A DNA stretch of 64,000 bases from Promethearchaeota archaeon (GTDB lineage: Archaea > Asgardarchaeota > Lokiarchaeia > Sigyniarchaeales > SOKP01), in the NCBI GenBank assembly GCA_016839555.1, contig JAEOUA010000002.1, forward strand, positions 1 to 64,000. The letters run 5' to 3'. Position numbers and translations under genes: made by a program. A model generated the notes under the pieces. That model ran no database searches. It had not been told where the DNA came from and saw nothing but the letters and a program-made list of their open reading frames with translations. Of the stretch, positions 48,368 through 62,715 are shown in pieces; position 1 is the stretch's first letter, and each line of letters begins with the position of its first letter.

Positions 48368-48467
48368 TATACTTATCCTTATTCTAATTTAATTTATTTT
48401 TCTTTTAGAAATTAAAATAAATTAATATAATTAATTATACAATCATAATAAAAATTTGAAAAAAAGC

Positions 48468-49712
48468 ATGATCGACTTACATAATCATAAAATTGAGCTT
48501 TTAGCACCTGTTCAAGATTGGAAAACCTTAAAATTTCTTGAAAATATTCCGGATTCGATTTATTTTGGCACAACCCATTATAATATGAGACTAAAGGCAC
48601 AAAATTTTCGAATAGAAGATCTTTCGAAAATTACGGAATATTGCCATTCCATGGATCCTCCTATAAAAGCATATTTATGTACCAATATTTTGATTTATAA
48701 TGCAGAATTGAATGGTTTAGAAAATCTTATTAAGGAGGCAAAGGATGCAGAAATCGATGCAATTATTGCCCATGATATGGCAGTACTTCAATTAGCTAAA
48801 AAGTATAGTATTAAATTTCATATATCCACTCAAGCAAATGTTTCTAATATTATCTCAGCCAAATTTTATGAGGATTTAGGGGCAGAAAGAATAATATTGG
48901 CACGAGAATTGAGCTTAAACCAGATCCGTGAAATAAAAAAGAGTTTAAAGAGCGCAAAAATTGAATGTTTTATTCACGGTTCGATGTGTACTTCTATTAG
49001 CGGAAGATGCTACTTCTCGGCAACAATTAAACATTCACAGAGATTTTCTGCTAATCGGGGAAATTGCGTGCAGCCTTGTAGAAGAAAATGGCGAGTGATT
49101 GATGATTAAAATAATGAGTTTATTTATGATGGTCAAATGTTCCTAAATGCAAAAGATTTATGTATGATTGAATATATCCCCGATTTAATTGAAGCTAATA
49201 TCGATGCTTTTAAAATAGAAGGAAGGATGAAAGACCCCCTCTACGTAAAAACTGTCGCCTCATGCTATAAAGAAGCTATAAGTAGTTATTATGATGCAAC
49301 CTTTTCTAAGAAAAAAGTAAAGGACTGGCTTAAAAGATTATTAAAAGTATATAATAGAGGGTTTCATACTGGTTTTTATTTTCAAAACCCTACTCCGAGT
49401 GATATACAATTAAATAAAAGAGGTAATATCTCCCCTCATAAAAAGCATTATATTGGAAGGATTTTAACCTATAATGAAAAAATTAAAACTGCTGAGCTCC
49501 TAATTGAAGCGAAAAGTTTGCCAATAATAGAAGGGAATGAATTTATTATAGAAGGGGATGATACCTACCTCTTAGAAAAATTTAATAATTTATTATTACA
49601 TGGCACGCAAATTCATTCTATCCAGAGGGATAAAGAAGATTTTCCAATTAAAATCAATGTGAAACTTGAAAATCCAGTTCTTTCAGGAGACAAAATATAC
49701 AAGTTTCAATAA
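48468..49712 (+). pseudogene. U32-family peptidase interrupted by an in-frame TAA
   Basis: Two track ORFs (48456-49109 and 49137-49712) are in the same frame and join through TAA at 49107-49109. Reading through it gives CVQPCRRKWRVIDD-stop-NNEFIYDG then KDLCMIEYIPDLIEANIDAF and KIEGRMK, the exact collagenase/U32 core with its conserved Cys cluster and KIEGR motif. A single change such as GAA to TAA would explain the stop. The joined protein has about 415 residues, normal for the family, and nothing else is missing. U32 proteins act on collagen-like peptides or in tRNA hydroxylation (TrhP) and ubiquinone synthesis. ATG 48468 is preferred over TTG 48456. TAA is not a known recoding codon here, so the gene may be a recent pseudogene. 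Confidence 0.75.
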
Positions 49713-50543: not shown

Positions 50544-50721
50544 TTATTATAATTTAAAAAAAAAGATAATTTAAATAAAAATAGCATTATAACTAATTAA
50601 TTTAAAATCTCGTTTTGACAAAAGATGAATATTGTTTTTTGTTTTTCTCTTCTGGATTTTAATGATTGATAACGTTAACCATCCAACTGAAAATTCTTAA
50701 AAAAAATATTTGAAAGAGAAA

Positions 50722-52671
50722 ATGGAAAAATTTAAGCTGAATGTGGACTTTATCAACAAGTTTAGGAATAAACAACCAGATTGGGGGCCTTTAGGTTATT
50801 TCACTTATAAAAGAACTTATGCTCGATATTTAGAAGAAAAAGACAGAAAAGAAGAATTTTGGGAAACCGTCCAAAGAGTAGTAGAAGGGTGTTTTTCAAT
50901 ACAAAAAACCCATTGTCGGAATTTGAAACTTCCATGGGATGACCAAAAGGCGCGAGATTCTGCTGAGCGTATGTATGAAAAAATTTGGAATTTTAAGATG
51001 ACTCCTCCTGGAAGAGGCTTATGGATTATGGGAACGAAATTTATTGCTGAACATGGCTCAATGGCATTAAATAATTGCGGATTTGTGTCCACCAAGGATA
51101 TAGATATTAAATATACGAAATCCTTCGAGTTTCTTATGTATGCTTTGATGGTAGGGGTGGGTGTAGGATTTGATACTAAAGGAGCTGGAAAAATTACCAT
51201 TAAAAAGCCAACAGAGGGTCATTTTGAATTCATCATCCCCGATAGTAGAGAAGGATGGGTAGAAGCCTTAAAACTTTTACTAGAAGCTTATTTTCTCGGG
51301 AAACAGGTTCCAATATACGATTATTCAGAAATTAGGCCCAAGGGAGAACCTCTGGAAAGTTTTGGAGGTACTGCTTCTGGACCTGAACCATTAAAAAGAA
51401 TACTTTCTCAAATCGAAAAAATACTTACTACTAGAATTGGAAAACCCTTAAGTCCTCTAAATATCTTAGATATTATGAATTTAATTGGAACATGTGTTAT
51501 TGCTGGTGGTATAAGAAGAAGTGCGGAAATAGGTTTAGGAGAACAAAATGATAAAGAGTTTATTACCGCAAAACAAGATAAAGAAAAATTAAATTCACAT
51601 CGTTGGGTGAGTAATAACAGCATTATTGCAGAAATTGGCATGAATTATGATTTTATAGTAGAACAATTAATCAAAAATGGGGAACCTGGATTATTTTGGC
51701 TCGAAAACGCTAGAAAATACTCTCGAATGATAGATCCACCGAATTATAAAGACAAGAGTGTTTTAGGAATGAATCCATGTGGAGAAATCTCTTTAGAATC
51801 CTTTGAGCTGTGTAACTTAGTAGAAACTTATCCCTCAAGGCATGAAAATTGGGATGAATTTAAGGAAACTCTGAAATATGCGTATATGTATGCCAAGACA
51901 GTAACTCTCTTAAATACAAATAATGAAATGACAAATGCTGTAATGTTAAAAAATAGAAGATTAGGAATTTCTCAAACAGGCATAATTGAAGCATTCAACA
52001 GACATGGAAAAGCTACAATAATGGAATGGTGTCAAAAAGGATATGATTATCTAAAACAATTAGATGAGAAATATTCTCACTGGTTATGCATTCCGAAATC
52101 TATTAAATTAACCACGGTAAAGCCGAGTGGAACCGTTAGTTTATTACCAGGAGTGTCTCAAGGGATCCATTTTCCCCATTCAAAATATTATTTAAGAAGA
52201 ATACGTATTCAAGAAAACTCGGAATTAGTCGATATAGTCAAAGTTGCAGGATATAAAGTATTGAAAGATGAATATTCTGAAAATGTATTGCTAATTGAAT
52301 TTCCGATTAAAAAGGAACATTATAAAAGAGGGAAAAAGGATGTATCAATGTGGGAGCAAGCAGAAAATGCAGCATTTTATCAGAAATACTGGTCAGATAA
52401 TCAAGTATCAGTAACAATAACCTTTAAAGAAGAGGAAAAAAAAGATATTAAGTACTTACTTAAGGCATATCAAGATAAATTGAAAAGTGTTTCTTTTCTT
52501 CCTTTACAAGAGCATGGATACAAACAAGCACCCTATCAAGAAATAACAAAAGACGAATATAAAGAATTATCCGAAGGATTAAAACCTCTATATTTAGATA
52601 AAGTTAAAGAAAAAGCAAGAGGAGAGATCTTCTGTGATTCAGAAGAATGTGAAATTCATATTAATAAATAA
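50722..52671 (+). CDS. Adenosylcobalamin-dependent ribonucleotide reductase (class II, RTPR type)
   Basis: From ATG 50722 (track TTG 50710) the product has 649 residues. Motifs: NNCGFVSTK with the first redox Cys, the finger-loop NPCGEISLESFELCNL with the catalytic thiyl Cys and Glu, VKPSGTVSLLPGVSQGIHFPHS and the C-terminal redox pair CDSEEC. The monomeric RTPR-type sequence begins RKEEFWETVQRVVEG, as in the Lactobacillus enzyme. It reduces nucleoside triphosphates to deoxynucleotides using B12 and works with or without oxygen. This links DNA synthesis to cobamide supply, in line with the RACo/MttB genes later in the window. Confidence 0.9.
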   Translation: MEKFKLNVDFINKFRNKQPDWGPLGYFTYKRTYARYLEEKDRKEEFWETVQRVVEGCFSIQKTHCRNLKLPWDDQKARDSAERMYEKIWNFKMTPPGRGLWIMGTKFIAEHGSMALNNCGFVSTKDIDIKYTKSFEFLMYALMVGVGVGFDTKGAGKITIKKPTEGHFEFIIPDSREGWVEALKLLLEAYFLGKQVPIYDYSEIRPKGEPLESFGGTASGPEPLKRILSQIEKILTTRIGKPLSPLNILDIMNLIGTCVIAGGIRRSAEIGLGEQNDKEFITAKQDKEKLNSHRWVSNNSIIAEIGMNYDFIVEQLIKNGEPGLFWLENARKYSRMIDPPNYKDKSVLGMNPCGEISLESFELCNLVETYPSRHENWDEFKETLKYAYMYAKTVTLLNTNNEMTNAVMLKNRRLGISQTGIIEAFNRHGKATIMEWCQKGYDYLKQLDEKYSHWLCIPKSIKLTTVKPSGTVSLLPGVSQGIHFPHSKYYLRRIRIQENSELVDIVKVAGYKVLKDEYSENVLLIEFPIKKEHYKRGKKDVSMWEQAENAAFYQKYWSDNQVSVTITFKEEEKKDIKYLLKAYQDKLKSVSFLPLQEHGYKQAPYQEITKDEYKELSEGLKPLYLDKVKEKARGEIFCDSEECEIHINK

Positions 52672-56207: not shown

Positions 56208-58112
56208 ATGGGAAAAAATATCATCATATTTCAACCAGAAGGGAAACGTGTTGAAATAGAAAAAGAAGACTCAATTTTGAGTGCTGCATTAAAAGTTGGT
56301 GTTGATTTAGTCTCAATTTGTAATGGAAAGGGAACATGTGGTAAATGTAAGGTCATTATAGATAATATGGATTCTGTAACTTCTTTAACAGAAAAAGAAT
56401 CTGAAATGTTATCCAATGATGAGAGAAAAAATAATATACGTTTAGCATGTTTGACAAAAGTTAAAGGAGATTTAACAGTAAAGGTTCCTGAATTTAGTAG
56501 AACAGGTAAACAACGTCTTCAGATCGAGGGGATAGAGACCCCTATAAATTTAAATCCCTTGATTAGAAAGTATTATTTAGAATTAGAGGAACCTACCTTA
56601 GATGATCCTAGATCAGATGTTGATAGAATTATGGATTATTTATATGAGAATTTTAATCTATCGAATTTAAATATGGATTATTATTTATTAAAAAACCTCG
56701 CTAAAATCTTGAGAGAAGCAGAGTGGAAATTTACTGTGGCAATCTGGCAAAATACTATAATAAATATTGATATTAATGATACGACAGACCGTGTATTTGG
56801 ATATGCTGTAGATATAGGAACAACAAAACTAGCTGGTTATTTAATTGACTTATTGACTGGTAAAGTTGTTGCAGCTGGTTCTTTAATGAATCCTCAAATT
56901 CCTTATGGAGAAGATGTTGTTTCCAGATTAAACTATCCTGATCAAAAGAAACTACAAGATGCAGTTATAGAAGGAATAAACCAGATACTTAATGATTTAA
57001 AGGAAAAAACAGCTGTAAAGTCTGAGGAAATCTATGAAATGACAGCTGTCGGAAACACTATTATGCATCATTTATTTTTAGGAATTTTTCCTTTATATGT
57101 TGGAAGATCTCCATACCCTCCTGTTGTTCGTGAAACGCAAATTGTTAATGCAAGAAATTTAGGCGTAAAAATTCATCCAAACGGAAGAATTGTATTTTTG
57201 CCTACAATTGCAGGATTTGTAGGAGCAGATACCGTTGGAGTTGTCCTCTCTACAGAACTTTATAAAAGCGAAGATATTTGCCTAGCTATTGATATAGGGA
57301 CTAACACAGAAGTTGTGCTAGGAAATAAAGATAAGATGTTAGCTGCTTCATGCGCTTCAGGTCCAGCGTTTGAAGGGGCACATATTAAATTTGGAATGAG
57401 AGCAGCTAGTGGATCCATAGAGAATATCAAGATTGATCCAGAGACACTTGATGTTGAATATAAAACTATAGATAATGAGCCTCCAATTGGAATATGTGGT
57501 TCGGGTATGATTGATTTAGTAGCAGAAATGTTAAAAACAGGAATTATTGATGTGGGAGGAATAATTAATCGAAGTCTTAATAGTCCAAGAGTGCGTAGGA
57601 ATGAAGAATCAATAATAGAATTTGTCGTTGTCTTCTCAGATAAGACAGGAATTAAAAAAGATATTACATTTTCTCAGCAAGATGTAAGTCAAATTATTTT
57701 AGCTAAAGCTGCAATGCACACAGGCATAAAGCTCTTATTAAAGAATTATAACATAAAAAAAGAAGATATTCATAAAGTCTATTTAGCAGGTGCTTTTGGT
57801 TCTCATATCAATAAAGAAAGTGCAAGAATGATAGGAATTTTTCCAGAAATAGATTTAGAAAAAGTAATTATTGTTGGAAATGCTGCTGGAACAGGAGCAA
57901 GAATGTGCCTTGTTTCAGAAGAAGCTAAAAAATTAGTTGAGAAGCTTTCCAAAAAAATAAGATATTTAGAACTTGGTAATGACCCTGATTTTCAGAAAAC
58001 ATTCATGAATTCAAATATCATTCCATATGCTGATCTGGATGAATTTCCTGAAATATCCAAGACATTAAAAAAATATGGAAATTATCCTGAACAATCTCCC
58101 CCCAAATTTTAA
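56208..58112 (+). CDS. RACo-like corrinoid reductive activase (2Fe-2S plus ASKHA)
   Basis: The 634-residue product has an N-terminal ferredoxin with CX5CX2C (C38-NGKGT-C44-GK-C47) and a fourth Cys at C81, a middle region (SFALNLNM-like linker), and the ASKHA-fold DUF4445 half: GYAVDIGTTKLAGYLIDL, LMNPQIPYGEDVVSRLNY, VGNTIMHHLFLG, CLAIDIGTNTEVVLGNKD, GPAFEGAHI, GMIDLVAEMLK and YLAGAFGSHIN. RACo uses ATP to reduce inactive Co(II) corrinoid proteins to the Co(I) state in methyl transfer. Here the partner is probably an MttB system, as an MttB homolog lies 4.6 kb downstream. A gene for the corrinoid protein is not in the window. Confidence 0.88.
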   Translation: MGKNIIIFQPEGKRVEIEKEDSILSAALKVGVDLVSICNGKGTCGKCKVIIDNMDSVTSLTEKESEMLSNDERKNNIRLACLTKVKGDLTVKVPEFSRTGKQRLQIEGIETPINLNPLIRKYYLELEEPTLDDPRSDVDRIMDYLYENFNLSNLNMDYYLLKNLAKILREAEWKFTVAIWQNTIINIDINDTTDRVFGYAVDIGTTKLAGYLIDLLTGKVVAAGSLMNPQIPYGEDVVSRLNYPDQKKLQDAVIEGINQILNDLKEKTAVKSEEIYEMTAVGNTIMHHLFLGIFPLYVGRSPYPPVVRETQIVNARNLGVKIHPNGRIVFLPTIAGFVGADTVGVVLSTELYKSEDICLAIDIGTNTEVVLGNKDKMLAASCASGPAFEGAHIKFGMRAASGSIENIKIDPETLDVEYKTIDNEPPIGICGSGMIDLVAEMLKTGIIDVGGIINRSLNSPRVRRNEESIIEFVVVFSDKTGIKKDITFSQQDVSQIILAKAAMHTGIKLLLKNYNIKKEDIHKVYLAGAFGSHINKESARMIGIFPEIDLEKVIIVGNAAGTGARMCLVSEEAKKLVEKLSKKIRYLELGNDPDFQKTFMNSNIIPYADLDEFPEISKTLKKYGNYPEQSPPKF

Positions 58113-58148
58113 TATTATAATGCAATAAATTGATTAATTCTTAGAAAA

Positions 58149-59882
58149 ATGAATAAAAGAGAAGGAAAGAGAATCCTCAAGAATTTTAATCCCAAAATAT
58201 TCAATGATGCAGTCATTTCATTGGGAACAGAAGATATACAAGTAGTGAATTTTGATATTACTCGAGCAATCGCAAAAGTTATTAAATCAATGTTTGGTCC
58301 TAAGGGATTAAATAAGATGATCATTCCCGTGTCAAATGAGACTGTTTTTACCCAAAAGGGAGATAAAGTTGTAAAAAGTTTTAAAAGCAGGGTTCCCATA
58401 ACTATGATGCTAATAGATTTAGTAAAAACACAACAGAAGAATTGTGGGGATGGAACAAAAACAGCGTTATTACTTACGGCATTTCTACTAGAAAAAACTA
58501 GAGAAATGTTGGGACTTGGACTACATCCTCAGATAATTAATAAAGGTTTTTCGATTGCTATGAATAAAGCTCTTGAAATCTTAGAAGATAATGTTATTCA
58601 ATTTGATTTCCATAATGAAAGACAATTAATTGATATAATGAAAAGCGTTATGAATCATAAATTTGTTTATCAGAATAGAGATCAACATATAAAGTTAATT
58701 AAAGAAACACTTAAGAACAATTATGATCTTTTTTTTAAGTCTCAAGATTATGATCATTCTGATATTCTTTGTAGAAAAGTAAAAGGAAAATCTATTAATG
58801 ATTCTGAAGTTATAAATGGGATTATAATATATAAAGATAAGGCAAATTCATATTTACCCGATAAAATTGAAGACGCGGGAATACTATTAATTCAAAAATC
58901 TATAGATTATTTTACTAAGGAAAATAAAGAAGCTATTTCAAAAGAAGTCAGGATTAAGAGTAGAGAGAAGCTACAAGAGTTTTCCCAATTTAGAAAGAAT
59001 TTCTATAATAATTTAGTAAAAAAATTAAAACAAAAAGGGGTTAATGTTATCTTATGCCAGAAAAAAATCAATCCTTATTTTGTGGATTATTGTGCTAGTA
59101 AAGGAATAGTTGCTTTAGAATTAGTGGGAAAGAAAAAATTAAATAAATTATGCAAATTATTGGATGTTAATCTCTACTCAAGTTTGAATGATTTATCTAA
59201 TATAAAATTAGGTAAAGCTGATTCTGTCGAATTTAAAAAGATATCGGGAGATGAAATGTTTATTATAAATGTTGAAGAGTCAAAAATTCTTACATTCTTA
59301 ATAAGAGGTGGAAATCAACCCTTAATGGATGAATTAGAAGAGATATTATATGGTTCTTTAAGGGTTGCAATTCAAACAGTAAAAGATAAAAAAATATTGC
59401 CAGGAGGCGGAGCATTAGAATGCGAAATAGCGCAAAAACTTAAAAAATATGCTCAGAATTATTCTAATAAATATCAAATAGTAATTAAAGAGTATGCCAA
59501 AGCTTTTGAAAGCCTTCCAGGTCATATAATTAAGAATTCTGCAGCTGAGCCTCTTGATTTAATACCTCGATTACGAGCAGAACACAATAAAGGTCAATGT
59601 TATATGGGATTTAATTCTTTGACCAATGAAATAGTAGATGTTGTAAGAGAGGGGATTTATGATGGATACTATACAAAAAAACATATTATAAAAATAGCTA
59701 GTGAACTTGCGCGACAAATAGTACGTATTGATGGCTTAGTAATGGTATACGACCGAAAATTATATGAACAAGTTAAAAAAGAAGGAAGAGAGATAAAAAG
59801 CCAAAAGCATCAAGAGAAAGTCAGAAAATATCTTAATAAAAAAGATCAGGACTTATTTTCTGAGATTTATAATGCTAAATAA
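58149..59882 (+). CDS. Divergent thermosome/CCT-type chaperonin paralog
   Basis: The 577-residue product follows the group II chaperonin plan: IAKVIKSMFGPKGLNKMI (GPKG, 50-53), CGDGTKTALLLTAFLLE (99-115, usually GDGTT), a long middle (apical) part, and ILPGGGALECEIAQKLKKYA. Normal thermosomes have TNDGATIL between the first two motifs; here it is FTQKGDKVVKS (67-77), so the NDG nucleotide-site segment is lost. A C-terminal helix and Lys-rich tail replace the usual Gly-rich tail. It starts 36 bp after the RACo-like gene, in the same direction, so it is probably co-transcribed. It might fold or remodel a corrinoid protein, which is inference. ATPase activity is doubtful. Confidence 0.75.
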   Translation: MNKREGKRILKNFNPKIFNDAVISLGTEDIQVVNFDITRAIAKVIKSMFGPKGLNKMIIPVSNETVFTQKGDKVVKSFKSRVPITMMLIDLVKTQQKNCGDGTKTALLLTAFLLEKTREMLGLGLHPQIINKGFSIAMNKALEILEDNVIQFDFHNERQLIDIMKSVMNHKFVYQNRDQHIKLIKETLKNNYDLFFKSQDYDHSDILCRKVKGKSINDSEVINGIIIYKDKANSYLPDKIEDAGILLIQKSIDYFTKENKEAISKEVRIKSREKLQEFSQFRKNFYNNLVKKLKQKGVNVILCQKKINPYFVDYCASKGIVALELVGKKKLNKLCKLLDVNLYSSLNDLSNIKLGKADSVEFKKISGDEMFIINVEESKILTFLIRGGNQPLMDELEEILYGSLRVAIQTVKDKKILPGGGALECEIAQKLKKYAQNYSNKYQIVIKEYAKAFESLPGHIIKNSAAEPLDLIPRLRAEHNKGQCYMGFNSLTNEIVDVVREGIYDGYYTKKHIIKIASELARQIVRIDGLVMVYDRKLYEQVKKEGREIKSQKHQEKVRKYLNKKDQDLFSEIYNAK

Positions 59883-60068: not shown

Positions 60069-60488
60069 ATGAATGTAAGTCCAAATGAGAACTTAGAAGG
60101 ATTTGCTGCTCTTATGCATAATCAATTCGTACGACCTCTTAAGGACAGTAAAAAATTCAAAGAAAAATACAAAAAAACCAATGTAAAATTATTTTTTAAT
60201 ATAATTGATGCTACTCACTCTGCAATATTAATCCTTGAAAATGGAACAATTAATATTAAAGGGATTCTTCGAGAAAATGAAGATGAAATTGAGAAAGCGA
60301 AAAAGGAATGTGATGCTAAAATCGAAACTGACATGAAAACTTTTATAAAAATAGATGATATGTCGACTCTTCGGACCCTTAAGAAGATTATATCAGGAAA
60401 ATTGAAGATAAAGGGAGGAAAGCAATTAAAATTACTTCAAGAGTTACGTGTGCTTGCAGAAGAGGAAGATGCTCAAGATTTTTTTTAA
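60069..60488 (+). CDS. SCP2-like lipid-binding domain protein
   Basis: The 139-residue product has the pattern of sterol-carrier-protein-2-like domains: KLFFNIIDATHSAILILENGTINI, a middle helix, and SGKLKIKGGKQLKLLQELRVL near the end. Such domains bind acyl or sterol lipids or act as partner modules. The acidic end (EEEDAQDFF) is unusual. Gaps on either side are 186 and 122 bp. The call is by strand pattern and this closing motif only. Confidence 0.5.
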   Translation: MNVSPNENLEGFAALMHNQFVRPLKDSKKFKEKYKKTNVKLFFNIIDATHSAILILENGTINIKGILRENEDEIEKAKKECDAKIETDMKTFIKIDDMSTLRTLKKIISGKLKIKGGKQLKLLQELRVLAEEEDAQDFF

Positions 60489-60610: not shown

Positions 60611-61840
60611 ATGAATAAACAACATAACATAGATGAGCTAATTTTAAAGATTGAATATGATCCTGATCAAAAATCCAGAATCAAGAGTTTACAAACACTT
60701 AAAGAATTAGAATTACTAACTTTTGCTCATATTAATTTTTTAGAGAATTTAGCAATTGGAGACACCAACCTTAATATAAGGCAAATAGCTTTAAGCATTC
60801 TCATAAATAAATTCTATGAGAAAGTGAACTTATTAATCGAATGGATATTCCAATTTGAAAAAACACCAAGAATTGCGGCAACGGTTACGGGATTGTTATT
60901 TAAGAAAAAAAAAGAAGATTTAATGGAACATATAATTAGATTTTTAGATAATAATGTAAAAAACAATGGTAATTTAAGTCTTAAAATATATAACAAAGAA
61001 TTATCGAAGTTGTTTAATAATAAATCTTTAAAGTCTTTTTCTAGTGAAGAGTTAATGAATATATATCTTAATTATATATTTATTTTAAATCTAGAAGAAA
61101 GGTTTAAATTCTCGGAAAACCTTAACACCAAGTCGCTAACATACATACTTAAGGAAGGCCTTATTGTCGAATTAAGAATATGGGGCCTTACTCTTAGGAA
61201 AGTGAGTGAAATTGATGGTATTGAATTATTGAAAATGTTAAGAGTATTAGATCTTTCAGGTAATAATTTTCAAGAAATTAACGGATTAGAATCTTTAAAA
61301 TCATTAGAAATTCTTAAATTTGGTGATCTAAATTATGGTACTGGAAATCAAATTACCGAAATCAAAGGATTATCCTCATTGAAAAATCTAAGGGTACTAA
61401 ATCTCTCTAATAATTATATCAATGAAATCAAAGGACTTGAAAATTTGCTTGATCTTAAGAGACTATATCTTGTCAATAATTCATTAAAAGAGATTAAAGA
61501 GCTAGATATGCTTCATAGCCTAGTTTATTTAAATCTTGAGAAAAATCATATTACCCAAATTCAGGGTATTGATCAATTAATTTCATTAGAAGTTTTAGTT
61601 TTAGGAAAAAATTCAATCGTAAGATTAAATATACCAGACCTTCCGAATTTGAAAGAAATAAGAATTTATGGTAATCCTCTTTCTGAAATTGGACCAACAA
61701 AATTAAAAAATGAAATTGAATTAAAATTATACTCCTCCGAAATTGAAAAAATGAAGTGGTTAAATTCTATTACTGGAATTAAAATAAAGAGTGTTGAAAC
61801 AGTAAAACCTACCGAATATGAATCTAGATATTTACAATAA
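60611..61840 (+). CDS. Leucine-rich-repeat protein with helical N-terminal domain
   Basis: The 409-residue product has a helical first half (LKELELLTFAHINFLENLA, ALSILINKFYEKVNLLIEWI), HEAT-like in composition, and about seven LRRs from about residue 190: LRVLDLSGNNFQEINGLESL, LRVLNLSNNYINEIKGLENL, LVYLNLEKNHITQIQGIDQL and others with a 22-residue period of the SDS22 type. The repeats end at about residue 370 with a short cap (EKMKWLNSITGIKIKSVE). Such proteins bind partners. A protein-protein scaffold role is likely. There is no signal peptide, so it is cytosolic. Confidence 0.82.
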   Translation: MNKQHNIDELILKIEYDPDQKSRIKSLQTLKELELLTFAHINFLENLAIGDTNLNIRQIALSILINKFYEKVNLLIEWIFQFEKTPRIAATVTGLLFKKKKEDLMEHIIRFLDNNVKNNGNLSLKIYNKELSKLFNNKSLKSFSSEELMNIYLNYIFILNLEERFKFSENLNTKSLTYILKEGLIVELRIWGLTLRKVSEIDGIELLKMLRVLDLSGNNFQEINGLESLKSLEILKFGDLNYGTGNQITEIKGLSSLKNLRVLNLSNNYINEIKGLENLLDLKRLYLVNNSLKEIKELDMLHSLVYLNLEKNHITQIQGIDQLISLEVLVLGKNSIVRLNIPDLPNLKEIRIYGNPLSEIGPTKLKNEIELKLYSSEIEKMKWLNSITGIKIKSVETVKPTEYESRYLQ

Positions 61841-61901: not shown

Positions 61902-62546
61902 TTAAAGAAATATTAGATTGAATAATGTTCTTTCAATTTTGCGAATATGCTCGTATATAGCACTTTGAGAAATTTTAAAATGTTCGGCTAAATCTGAGCC
62001 GTTAATTTTACGAGGAATTTCAAAATAACCATTTTTAACTGCATAATATGCAATTTCCTTTTGACGGTCAGTTATTAGAAAAAATAGATTATCAAGATTT
62101 GGATGTATATTTGTTATACTCAAAATTTTAAATCCTGAACCAAAAATTTTTTCATTTTTAGAGATGATTTTGTCAAGATTTTCATTATCACAAATAAATG
62201 AGATAGTCATTGAATTATTTTCCATTATTATTGGAGGATCAATAATAAAATCAGGGGCATTTGTAATATCTTTCATCTCATCCAGCCATTTAGAACCTGC
62301 AAAACAAACAAACTCATTCGTTTTTTTATCTTGTGTTAAAACTTCAATATATTCAATTCCATATTGCCCCTCAAACGCTTTTGGATTAATATTAGGATCT
62401 TTGAATTTAAATTTTTCAGTTGCATAAATGATCTCTTCATCTATACGGTATATTTGACTTATTTCAAAATATTCAATCCTTTCAAAAAAATCTTGAAAGC
62501 TTGGATGAATAGGTGTTTTTAAAGTTAATCTTTTTTTCTTTTTCAT
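61902..62546 (-). CDS. HTH_10 (bacterio-opsin-activator type) transcriptional regulator
   Basis: The 214-residue product ends in a HTH_10 domain: LITDRQKEIAYYAVKNGYFEIPR, then NGSDLAEHFKISQSAIYEHIRKIERTLF with the recognition helix. Residues 1-150 form a sensory-like domain of no recognised type (GIEYIEVLTQDKKTNEFVCF), as is common in haloarchaeal Bat-like proteins. It is divergent from the MttB-family gene with 169 bp between, so it may control that methyltransferase operon. This is inference from position. Confidence 0.75.
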   Translation of the reverse strand: MKKKKRLTLKTPIHPSFQDFFERIEYFEISQIYRIDEEIIYATEKFKFKDPNINPKAFEGQYGIEYIEVLTQDKKTNEFVCFAGSKWLDEMKDITNAPDFIIDPPIIMENNSMTISFICDNENLDKIISKNEKIFGSGFKILSITNIHPNLDNLFFLITDRQKEIAYYAVKNGYFEIPRKINGSDLAEHFKISQSAIYEHIRKIERTLFNLIFL

Positions 62547-62715
62547 TTAAATCGCTTCCAAATTTTAATAATTAAAAATATAATTAGAGACTGCTTTACT
62601 TCTCAAGCATAATTTATTTTTATTTCCTATTATATTTAAATTATACTTAGAATTAGGTTTTTTAGCTAAAATTAAAAGAATTAAATAATCTTAAAAAAAT
62701 AAGTGTGTATTGAAT

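Follow-up and report, generated by a model that had tools for sequence, protein, structure and literature searches.

A divergent group II chaperonin linked to a corrinoid methyltransferase locus in Asgard archaea

Results

Organization of the locus

The window analyzed here is a 64,000-nucleotide stretch of contig JAEOUA010000002.1 from a Promethearchaeota archaeon (GCA_016839555.1), in which a gene for a divergent group II chaperonin lies 36 bp downstream of, and on the same strand as, a gene for a RACo-type reductive activator of corrinoid proteins (Table 1). This spacing had been given correctly in a preliminary description of the window, which suggested that the chaperonin could be dedicated to a corrinoid system and overlooked the MttB-like methyltransferase gene starting at 62710. 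Beyond the MttB gene the contig continues with genes for a corrinoid protein and an SCP2-domain protein, then two MtrH-type genes on the other strand; together with the SDR, RACo, chaperonin, 139-amino-acid, leucine-rich-repeat (LRR) and HTH_10 genes of the window, these make up a locus for corrinoid methyltransfer. The window genome (G000; 3.74 Mb, 92% complete, 6.4% contamination) was compared with other Asgard genomes, labelled G031, G005 and so on; the genomes are fragmented metagenome-assembled genomes.

The activator has the Fer2, RACo_linker (PF17650), Raco_middle (PF17651) and ASKHA C-terminal (RACo_C_ter, PF14574) domains expected of RACo, with Pfam E-values down to 6e-97, and a 431-bit alignment to the solved RACo 3zyy spans its residues 5 to 616 and matches all four Fe-S cysteines. 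It scores 546.5 bits against NF040756, the profile for the CODH/ACS activator AcsV, under the cut-off of 800, and we therefore describe it as RACo-like and do not assign it to AcsV. MttB enzymes have a TIM-barrel fold, and the window-edge protein, 88% identical to that of G031, passes the PF06253 cut-off despite failing the test for pyrrolysine-type MttB (TIGR02369; 166.9 bits, cut-off 525); its 506-codon frame is uninterrupted and has no in-frame amber codon. The corrinoid protein resembles MtgC/MtbC, and the MtrH-type proteins resemble MtgA/MtrH, with scores below the NCBIfam equivalog cut-offs (183.6 bits for the corrinoid protein against glycine-betaine MtgC, NF047995, cut-off 310); B12-binding domains were found in the G031 orthologue of the corrinoid protein.

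The chaperonin is full-length, its residues 41 to 532 aligning to positions 1 to 487 of the 490 in PF00118, and it scores 377 bits against the NCBIfam thermosome profile versus 64 bits against GroEL, with the helical protrusion region aligned. Its best solved relatives are thermosomes (E-values of about 1e-83 to 1e-76), and the three domains are retained end to end. The scores for the thermosome alpha and beta equivalogs (377/367/361 bits) fall below their cut-offs (450/400/671). Two ordinary thermosomes are encoded on other contigs of the same genome, and identity to ordinary paralogues is about 30% across the equatorial, intermediate and apical domains, this protein having diverged much further than its fellow paralogues.

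A distinct chaperonin clade

Profile searches were made over 228 Asgard genomes, using a clade profile (A2) built on ten members. Among the 61 genomes of the window's family the paralogue is otherwise present only in G031 (60% identity) and G005 (53%), other chaperonins being at most 32% identical. Further members with the same gene order occur in G065 and G066, and more distant ones in families f19 and f20; with those of G155 and G157, which are cut by contig ends, the clade totals 12 genomes from at least five families. Clade members score at least 797 bits with A2 (883 for the window chaperonin), versus 564 for the next full-length Asgard protein. No member was found among the other archaea in a set of 393 relatives reaching beyond the phylum, where the best match scored 590 bits and ended before the C-terminal tail. 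In a careful tree the 11 members included form one group (support 100/99) that excludes both the ordinary Asgard paralogues and the Thermoplasma thermosome. By profile score and tree topology this is a distinct chaperonin clade, separate from ordinary thermosomes.

Chaperonins of G061 (L042, G061:C324) and G062 (L070, G062:C71) were considered as members and rejected; although GDGTK is present in both, their NDG is intact, the lid insertion described below is missing, and they fall outside the clade and are without corrinoid neighbors. A second divergent chaperonin lineage is present in G177 (L102:13859-15595) and G178 (L144:14383-16122), with proteins of 578 and 579 amino acids, about 25% identical, encoded inside another RACo/MtrH/corrinoid-protein cluster; the tree places these outside the main clade.

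An altered nucleotide site

The alignment bears out the motif changes previously reported for the window protein, with TQKGDKV in place of NDGATIL (TQKGDKVV against the (T/S)NDGATIL of ordinary thermosomes) and GDGTK in place of GDGTT. GPKG, GDG and the second catalytic aspartate are kept, but with these two changes the full conserved nucleotide-site set is not present; membership of the superfamily stands, yet a normal ATPase cannot be assumed. These changes are features of the clade. The NDG aspartate is retained in all 69 ordinary paralogues having that position and lost in 10 of the 11 clade members, and in the five close relatives (G000, G031, G005, G065 and G066) it is invariably lysine. 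The lysine of GDGTK is found in 11/11 members versus 2/72 others, and the short insertion at the base of the helical protrusion, or lid, is present in all 12 but absent from 70 of 72 others. The charged C-terminal tail is 40 to 54 residues long across the clade; this tail and the insertion lie in regions expected to touch the lid and cavity.

Nearly all members have GPKG and the Mg-site aspartate of GDG, so the ability to bind ATP is probably retained, whereas hydrolysis is probably altered, because lysine replaces the NDG aspartate in the window chaperonin and those closest to it. In the G066 chaperonin both the NDG and second aspartates are lost and GPCG stands in place of GPKG. In Mm-cpn, substitution of the second aspartate (D386A) leaves ATP binding intact and blocks hydrolysis (PMC5019054). 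Ratios of non-synonymous to synonymous substitution (dN/dS) are about 0.1 to 0.2 between close chaperonin pairs, with dS near saturation except for G160/G161 (0.07/0.38), and by this measure the chaperonin is under purifying selection.

Gene neighborhood

The RACo gene is directly upstream of the chaperonin, on the same strand, in 5/5 close members from three families, with gaps, using open reading frame (ORF) starts, of 36 bp in G000, 50 in G031, 112 in G005, 52 in G065 and 90 in G066; the adjacency is therefore not a matter of chance. The more distant members have different arrangements. The order in G158 is MtrH, chaperonin, corrinoid protein and MttB (on the opposite strand) and RACo, and it recurs in G155 and in G156, where the MttB frame is broken in two and RACo is cut by the contig end. 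MtrH precedes the chaperonin at a contig end in G157, and G162 has the order RACo, MttB, corrinoid protein, chaperonin. A gene of the corrinoid system (MttB-like, corrinoid protein, MtrH or RACo) adjoins the chaperonin in ten of the 12 genomes.

Co-occurrence with the methyltransferase

Presence of the chaperonin closely follows that of one MttB subfamily, which was defined at E ≤ 1e-60. Of the 228 genomes, 11 have the MttB subfamily, 12 the chaperonin and ten both (Fisher p 8e-15). The match is at the level of the subfamily, since PF06253 MttB proteins in general are found in 154/228. Two of the mismatches, G156 and G157, are the genomes with the broken MttB frame beside the chaperonin and with the chaperonin at a contig end, the latter genome being 70% complete. 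All 12 chaperonin genomes have the RACo subfamily (identity of at least about 52%), as do 11 that lack the chaperonin; in the loci inspected, neither MttB nor a corrinoid protein is encoded near these chaperonin-less RACo copies. Because these 11 genomes keep RACo without the chaperonin, the partner is better described as the methyltransferase module, and since the chaperonin follows MtrH rather than RACo in one group, that partner is not RACo alone. Pairwise distances for the chaperonin correlate with those for RACo (r 0.98) and for MttB (r 0.89). The sequences show the clade to be inherited along with one specific MttB-like methyltransferase and the corrinoid protein belonging to it, with methyltransferases of the MtrH type and with RACo.

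Other genes in and around the clusters

Several further genes are shared among the clusters (Table 1). SDR orthologues 60 to 75% identical are present in those of G031, G005 and G066, and orthologues of the HTH_10 regulator adjoin mttB in G031 and G005. The 139-amino-acid protein has no match in Pfam or NCBIfam, and an SCP2-like identity for it was dropped (hhalign probability 0.6%). The intergenic DNA has a GC content of 30%.

Table 1. Genes of the corrinoid locus and sequence features of the chaperonin, in window coordinates.
Feature	Coordinates	Strand	Basis or remark
SDR dehydrogenase, 257 aa	55192..55965	+	Pfam adh_short_C2 E 2e-61; conserved upstream cluster member
RACo-type reductive activator of corrinoid proteins, 634 aa, [2Fe-2S] and ASKHA domains	56208..58112	+	Pfam and 3zyy alignment
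Divergent group II chaperonin, corrinoid-linked clade, 577 aa	58149..59882	+	PF00118 E 2e-119
TQKG replacing (T/S)NDG; conserved Asp is Lys70	58350..58361	+	Alignment
GDGTK, residues 100-104, replacing GDGTT; Mg-site Asp101 kept	58446..58460	+	Alignment
3-4 residue insertion at base of helical protrusion (lid), about residues 253-259	58905..58925	+	Alignment
Asp413, equivalent of second catalytic Asp (D386 of Mm-cpn), retained	59385..59387	+	Alignment
46-residue charged C-terminal tail (VYDRKLYE...QEKVRKYLNKK)	59742..59879	+	Replaces Gly/Met-rich or short tail of thermosomes inspected
139-aa protein, no known family	60069..60488	+	54% identical counterpart in G031 cluster
Leucine-rich-repeat protein	60611..61840	+	Pfam LRR; 46-49% identity to G031 and G005 cluster copies
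HTH_10 (bacterio-opsin-activator type) regulator, divergent from mttB	61902..62546	-	PF04967 E 3e-17
MttB-superfamily methyltransferase, 506 aa	62710..64000, past window end to contig position 64230	+	PF06253 119.6 bits

In G031 and G005 the chaperonin gene is immediately followed by a pair of genes for an 840-amino-acid VWA protein and a 787-amino-acid protein (L034:9888-14775, L035:2237-7158), which are extra linked copies. We rejected these as parts of the system and did not take the VWA gene as evidence, since its family occurs in nearly every Lokiarchaeial genome away from the cluster. ChlI-ChlD-like AAA+VWA or putative cobaltochelatase genes behind the G065 chaperonin (L067:10860-13962) were likewise set aside, being missing from the other clusters. 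In G005 the opposite strand carries, between RACo and SDR, a 2-hydroxyglutaryl-CoA dehydratase/benzoyl-CoA reductase-like set together with its activator ATPase (L035:11234-14598), and beside the main cluster of G031 there are additional copies of MttB, corrinoid protein, SCP2 and MtrH in tandem (L143:3962-10748). A predicted FAD oxidoreductase-SCP2 fusion is encoded upstream of mttB in G065 (L067:2661-4526); together with the stand-alone SCP2 genes this hints at a hydrophobic substrate.

Elsewhere in the window, a peptidase-U32-like protein appears to be split over two neighboring ORFs of 217 and 191 amino acids (48456-49712), possibly by a frameshift, and a ribonucleotide reductase look-alike, judged by eye, is present at 50710-52671; the host genome is rich in corrinoid genes.

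Discussion

Linkage and the pattern of presence and absence make it very likely that the chaperonin is dedicated to the corrinoid system in some form, and in this respect the preliminary proposal stands, although not with RACo as sole partner. The fuller interpretation, that one corrinoid-dependent methyltransferase system has a group II chaperonin of its own, with a slowed or hold-type cycle serving the MttB/corrinoid-protein module, seems to us probable. Client, ring state and ATPase activity are matters of inference, and the most likely client would be the MttB enzyme or its corrinoid complex; whether folding or assembly of MttB and the corrinoid protein is the role is evenly balanced. We propose that the chaperonin still binds ATP and hydrolyzes it slowly or not at all, that the resulting slowed or held cycle would fold, load or assemble the module, and that RACo would then maintain the module in a reductively active state; the chaperonin may form its own ring or join the housekeeping thermosome subunits. 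It had been suggested earlier that the protein is specialized or ATP-inactive: a distinct, corrinoid-linked clade agrees with specialization, but inactivity toward ATP is not borne out, as GPKG, the GDG aspartate and D413 are retained.

Several observations weigh against this interpretation. G160 and G161 encode the chaperonin and the MttB-corrinoid-RACo-MtrH cluster on different contigs, and G020 (74% complete, with MttB on a short contig) has the MttB subfamily but no chaperonin was found in it. The genomes are related, so the Fisher and Mantel p-values overstate independence. In the tree the clade comprises two subgroups on long branches, although their union is also supported by the common insertion, lysine, tail and gene neighborhood. 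Four of the five close relatives still have the second catalytic aspartate, and about half of the clade has lost it, which is a weak guide to hydrolysis because the position also varies among ordinary Asgard paralogues. A structure prediction from a three-sequence alignment reached a pLDDT of 35 and was discarded. The preliminary description had also reasoned that a paralogue found widely away from RACo genes would argue against a dedicated role; this is not the distribution observed, since the two unlinked cases among the 12 both have the MttB/corrinoid/RACo/MtrH cluster elsewhere.

The tight RACo linkage raises the possibility that the chaperonin serves RACo specifically, for example in RACo folding or in RACo release of the corrinoid protein. 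The direct upstream position in all close relatives, the presence of the RACo subfamily in every chaperonin genome and the strong distance correlation fit this well, but the 11 genomes with that subfamily and no chaperonin, and the f19 and f20 chaperonins that adjoin MtrH or the corrinoid protein instead, make it quite improbable. That the neighborhood simply carries an ordinary thermosome paralogue as a chance hitchhiker is very hard to maintain, even though such paralogues are common (2 to 4 per Asgard genome), given the same neighborhood in ten genomes from at least five families, the near-exact match to one MttB subfamily and the clade-specific features.

Two other explanations concern how the chaperonin works. 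Archaeal thermosomes are often hetero-oligomers and the window genome encodes two ordinary subunits, so a protein retaining all three domains could be a specialized subunit of a mixed ring, steering a few clients while its slow ATPase tunes the ring. We consider this unlikely in view of a divergence far beyond that of other paralogues in all three domains; it is in any case compatible with dedication to the corrinoid system. Loss of the NDG aspartate in nearly all members and of the second in about half, and of both together with GPKG in G066, could instead point to a scaffold or holdase of the BBS6/BBS12 kind, derived from a chaperonin and holding the methyltransferase complex together without a folding cycle. 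The conserved GDG aspartate and GPKG loop, Asp413 of the window protein and a remaining fold that aligns end to end with thermosomes speak against this, and we regard such a scaffold as a minor possibility. A dedicated chaperonin of the methyltransferase module thus remains the interpretation that we prefer.

Among known proteins, the archaeal thermosome (PF00118; Thermoplasma 1a6d, Mm-cpn) shares the full-length three-domain match, helical protrusion, GPKG loop and GDG aspartate, but the window protein differs in its roughly 30% identity, NDG-to-lysine change, GDGTK, lid-base insertion, charged tail and narrow distribution tied to one enzyme system. The closest functional comparison, and a precedent for a dedicated role, is MimG, which according to a passage of PMC7570240 citing Furuya 2013 is a GroEL-like protein without which the propane monooxygenase MimABCD is not active; as proposed for the window protein, it is a chaperonin paralogue needed by one metal enzyme system, but MimG is a bacterial group I protein of a di-iron monooxygenase, whereas ours is group II, archaeal and corrinoid-linked. 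Divergent relatives of the group II chaperonins that serve a single assembly are also known in BBS6, BBS10 and BBS12, and the ATP-hydrolysis motif is altered in BBS6 and BBS12 (PMC5534436); these are eukaryotic and outside operons, and the window protein retains more of the nucleotide site.

The enzyme components resemble MttB/MtgB-MtgC-MtgA systems with RACo or RamA in having an MttB-superfamily enzyme, MtgC/MtbC-like corrinoid protein, MtrH/MtgA-like methyltransferase and reductive activase, but differ in scoring under the NCBIfam equivalog cut-offs and in the added SCP2, SDR, LRR and chaperonin genes. Asgard clusters of MttB, MtbC and MtrH have been described in Atabeyarchaeia and Freyarchaeia (PMC11291895), and these similarly combine a non-pyrrolysine MttB with a corrinoid protein and MtrH, although the main text of that report mentions neither a chaperonin nor an activase. 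In the literature that we searched for a chaperonin together with corrinoid or activase there was no prior description of such a chaperonin, in agreement with the preliminary description, which knew of none.

Thermosomes and CCT are usually regarded as general or broad folding machines. The strongest form of our proposal is a separate Asgard group II chaperonin family whose sole task would be maturing one corrinoid methyltransferase complex, its nucleotide site tuned to hold and not to cycle; this we advance tentatively, as possible but somewhat doubtful. If true, ours would be the first archaeal example in the searchable literature of a conserved group II chaperonin committed to a single enzyme module, and the first example to serve a corrinoid system. 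It would suggest that a dedicated maturation machine can be required by corrinoid methyltransferases, and would provide a small system for studying chaperonin specialization on one client. The lineage of G177 and G178, in its different corrinoid cluster, would mean that such recruitment occurred twice. The data suggest that an enzyme system in a few Asgard archaea keeps a private folding machine. Group II chaperonins would then have divided in function within the archaea closest to eukaryotes, and it is in eukaryotes that CCT subunits diversified.

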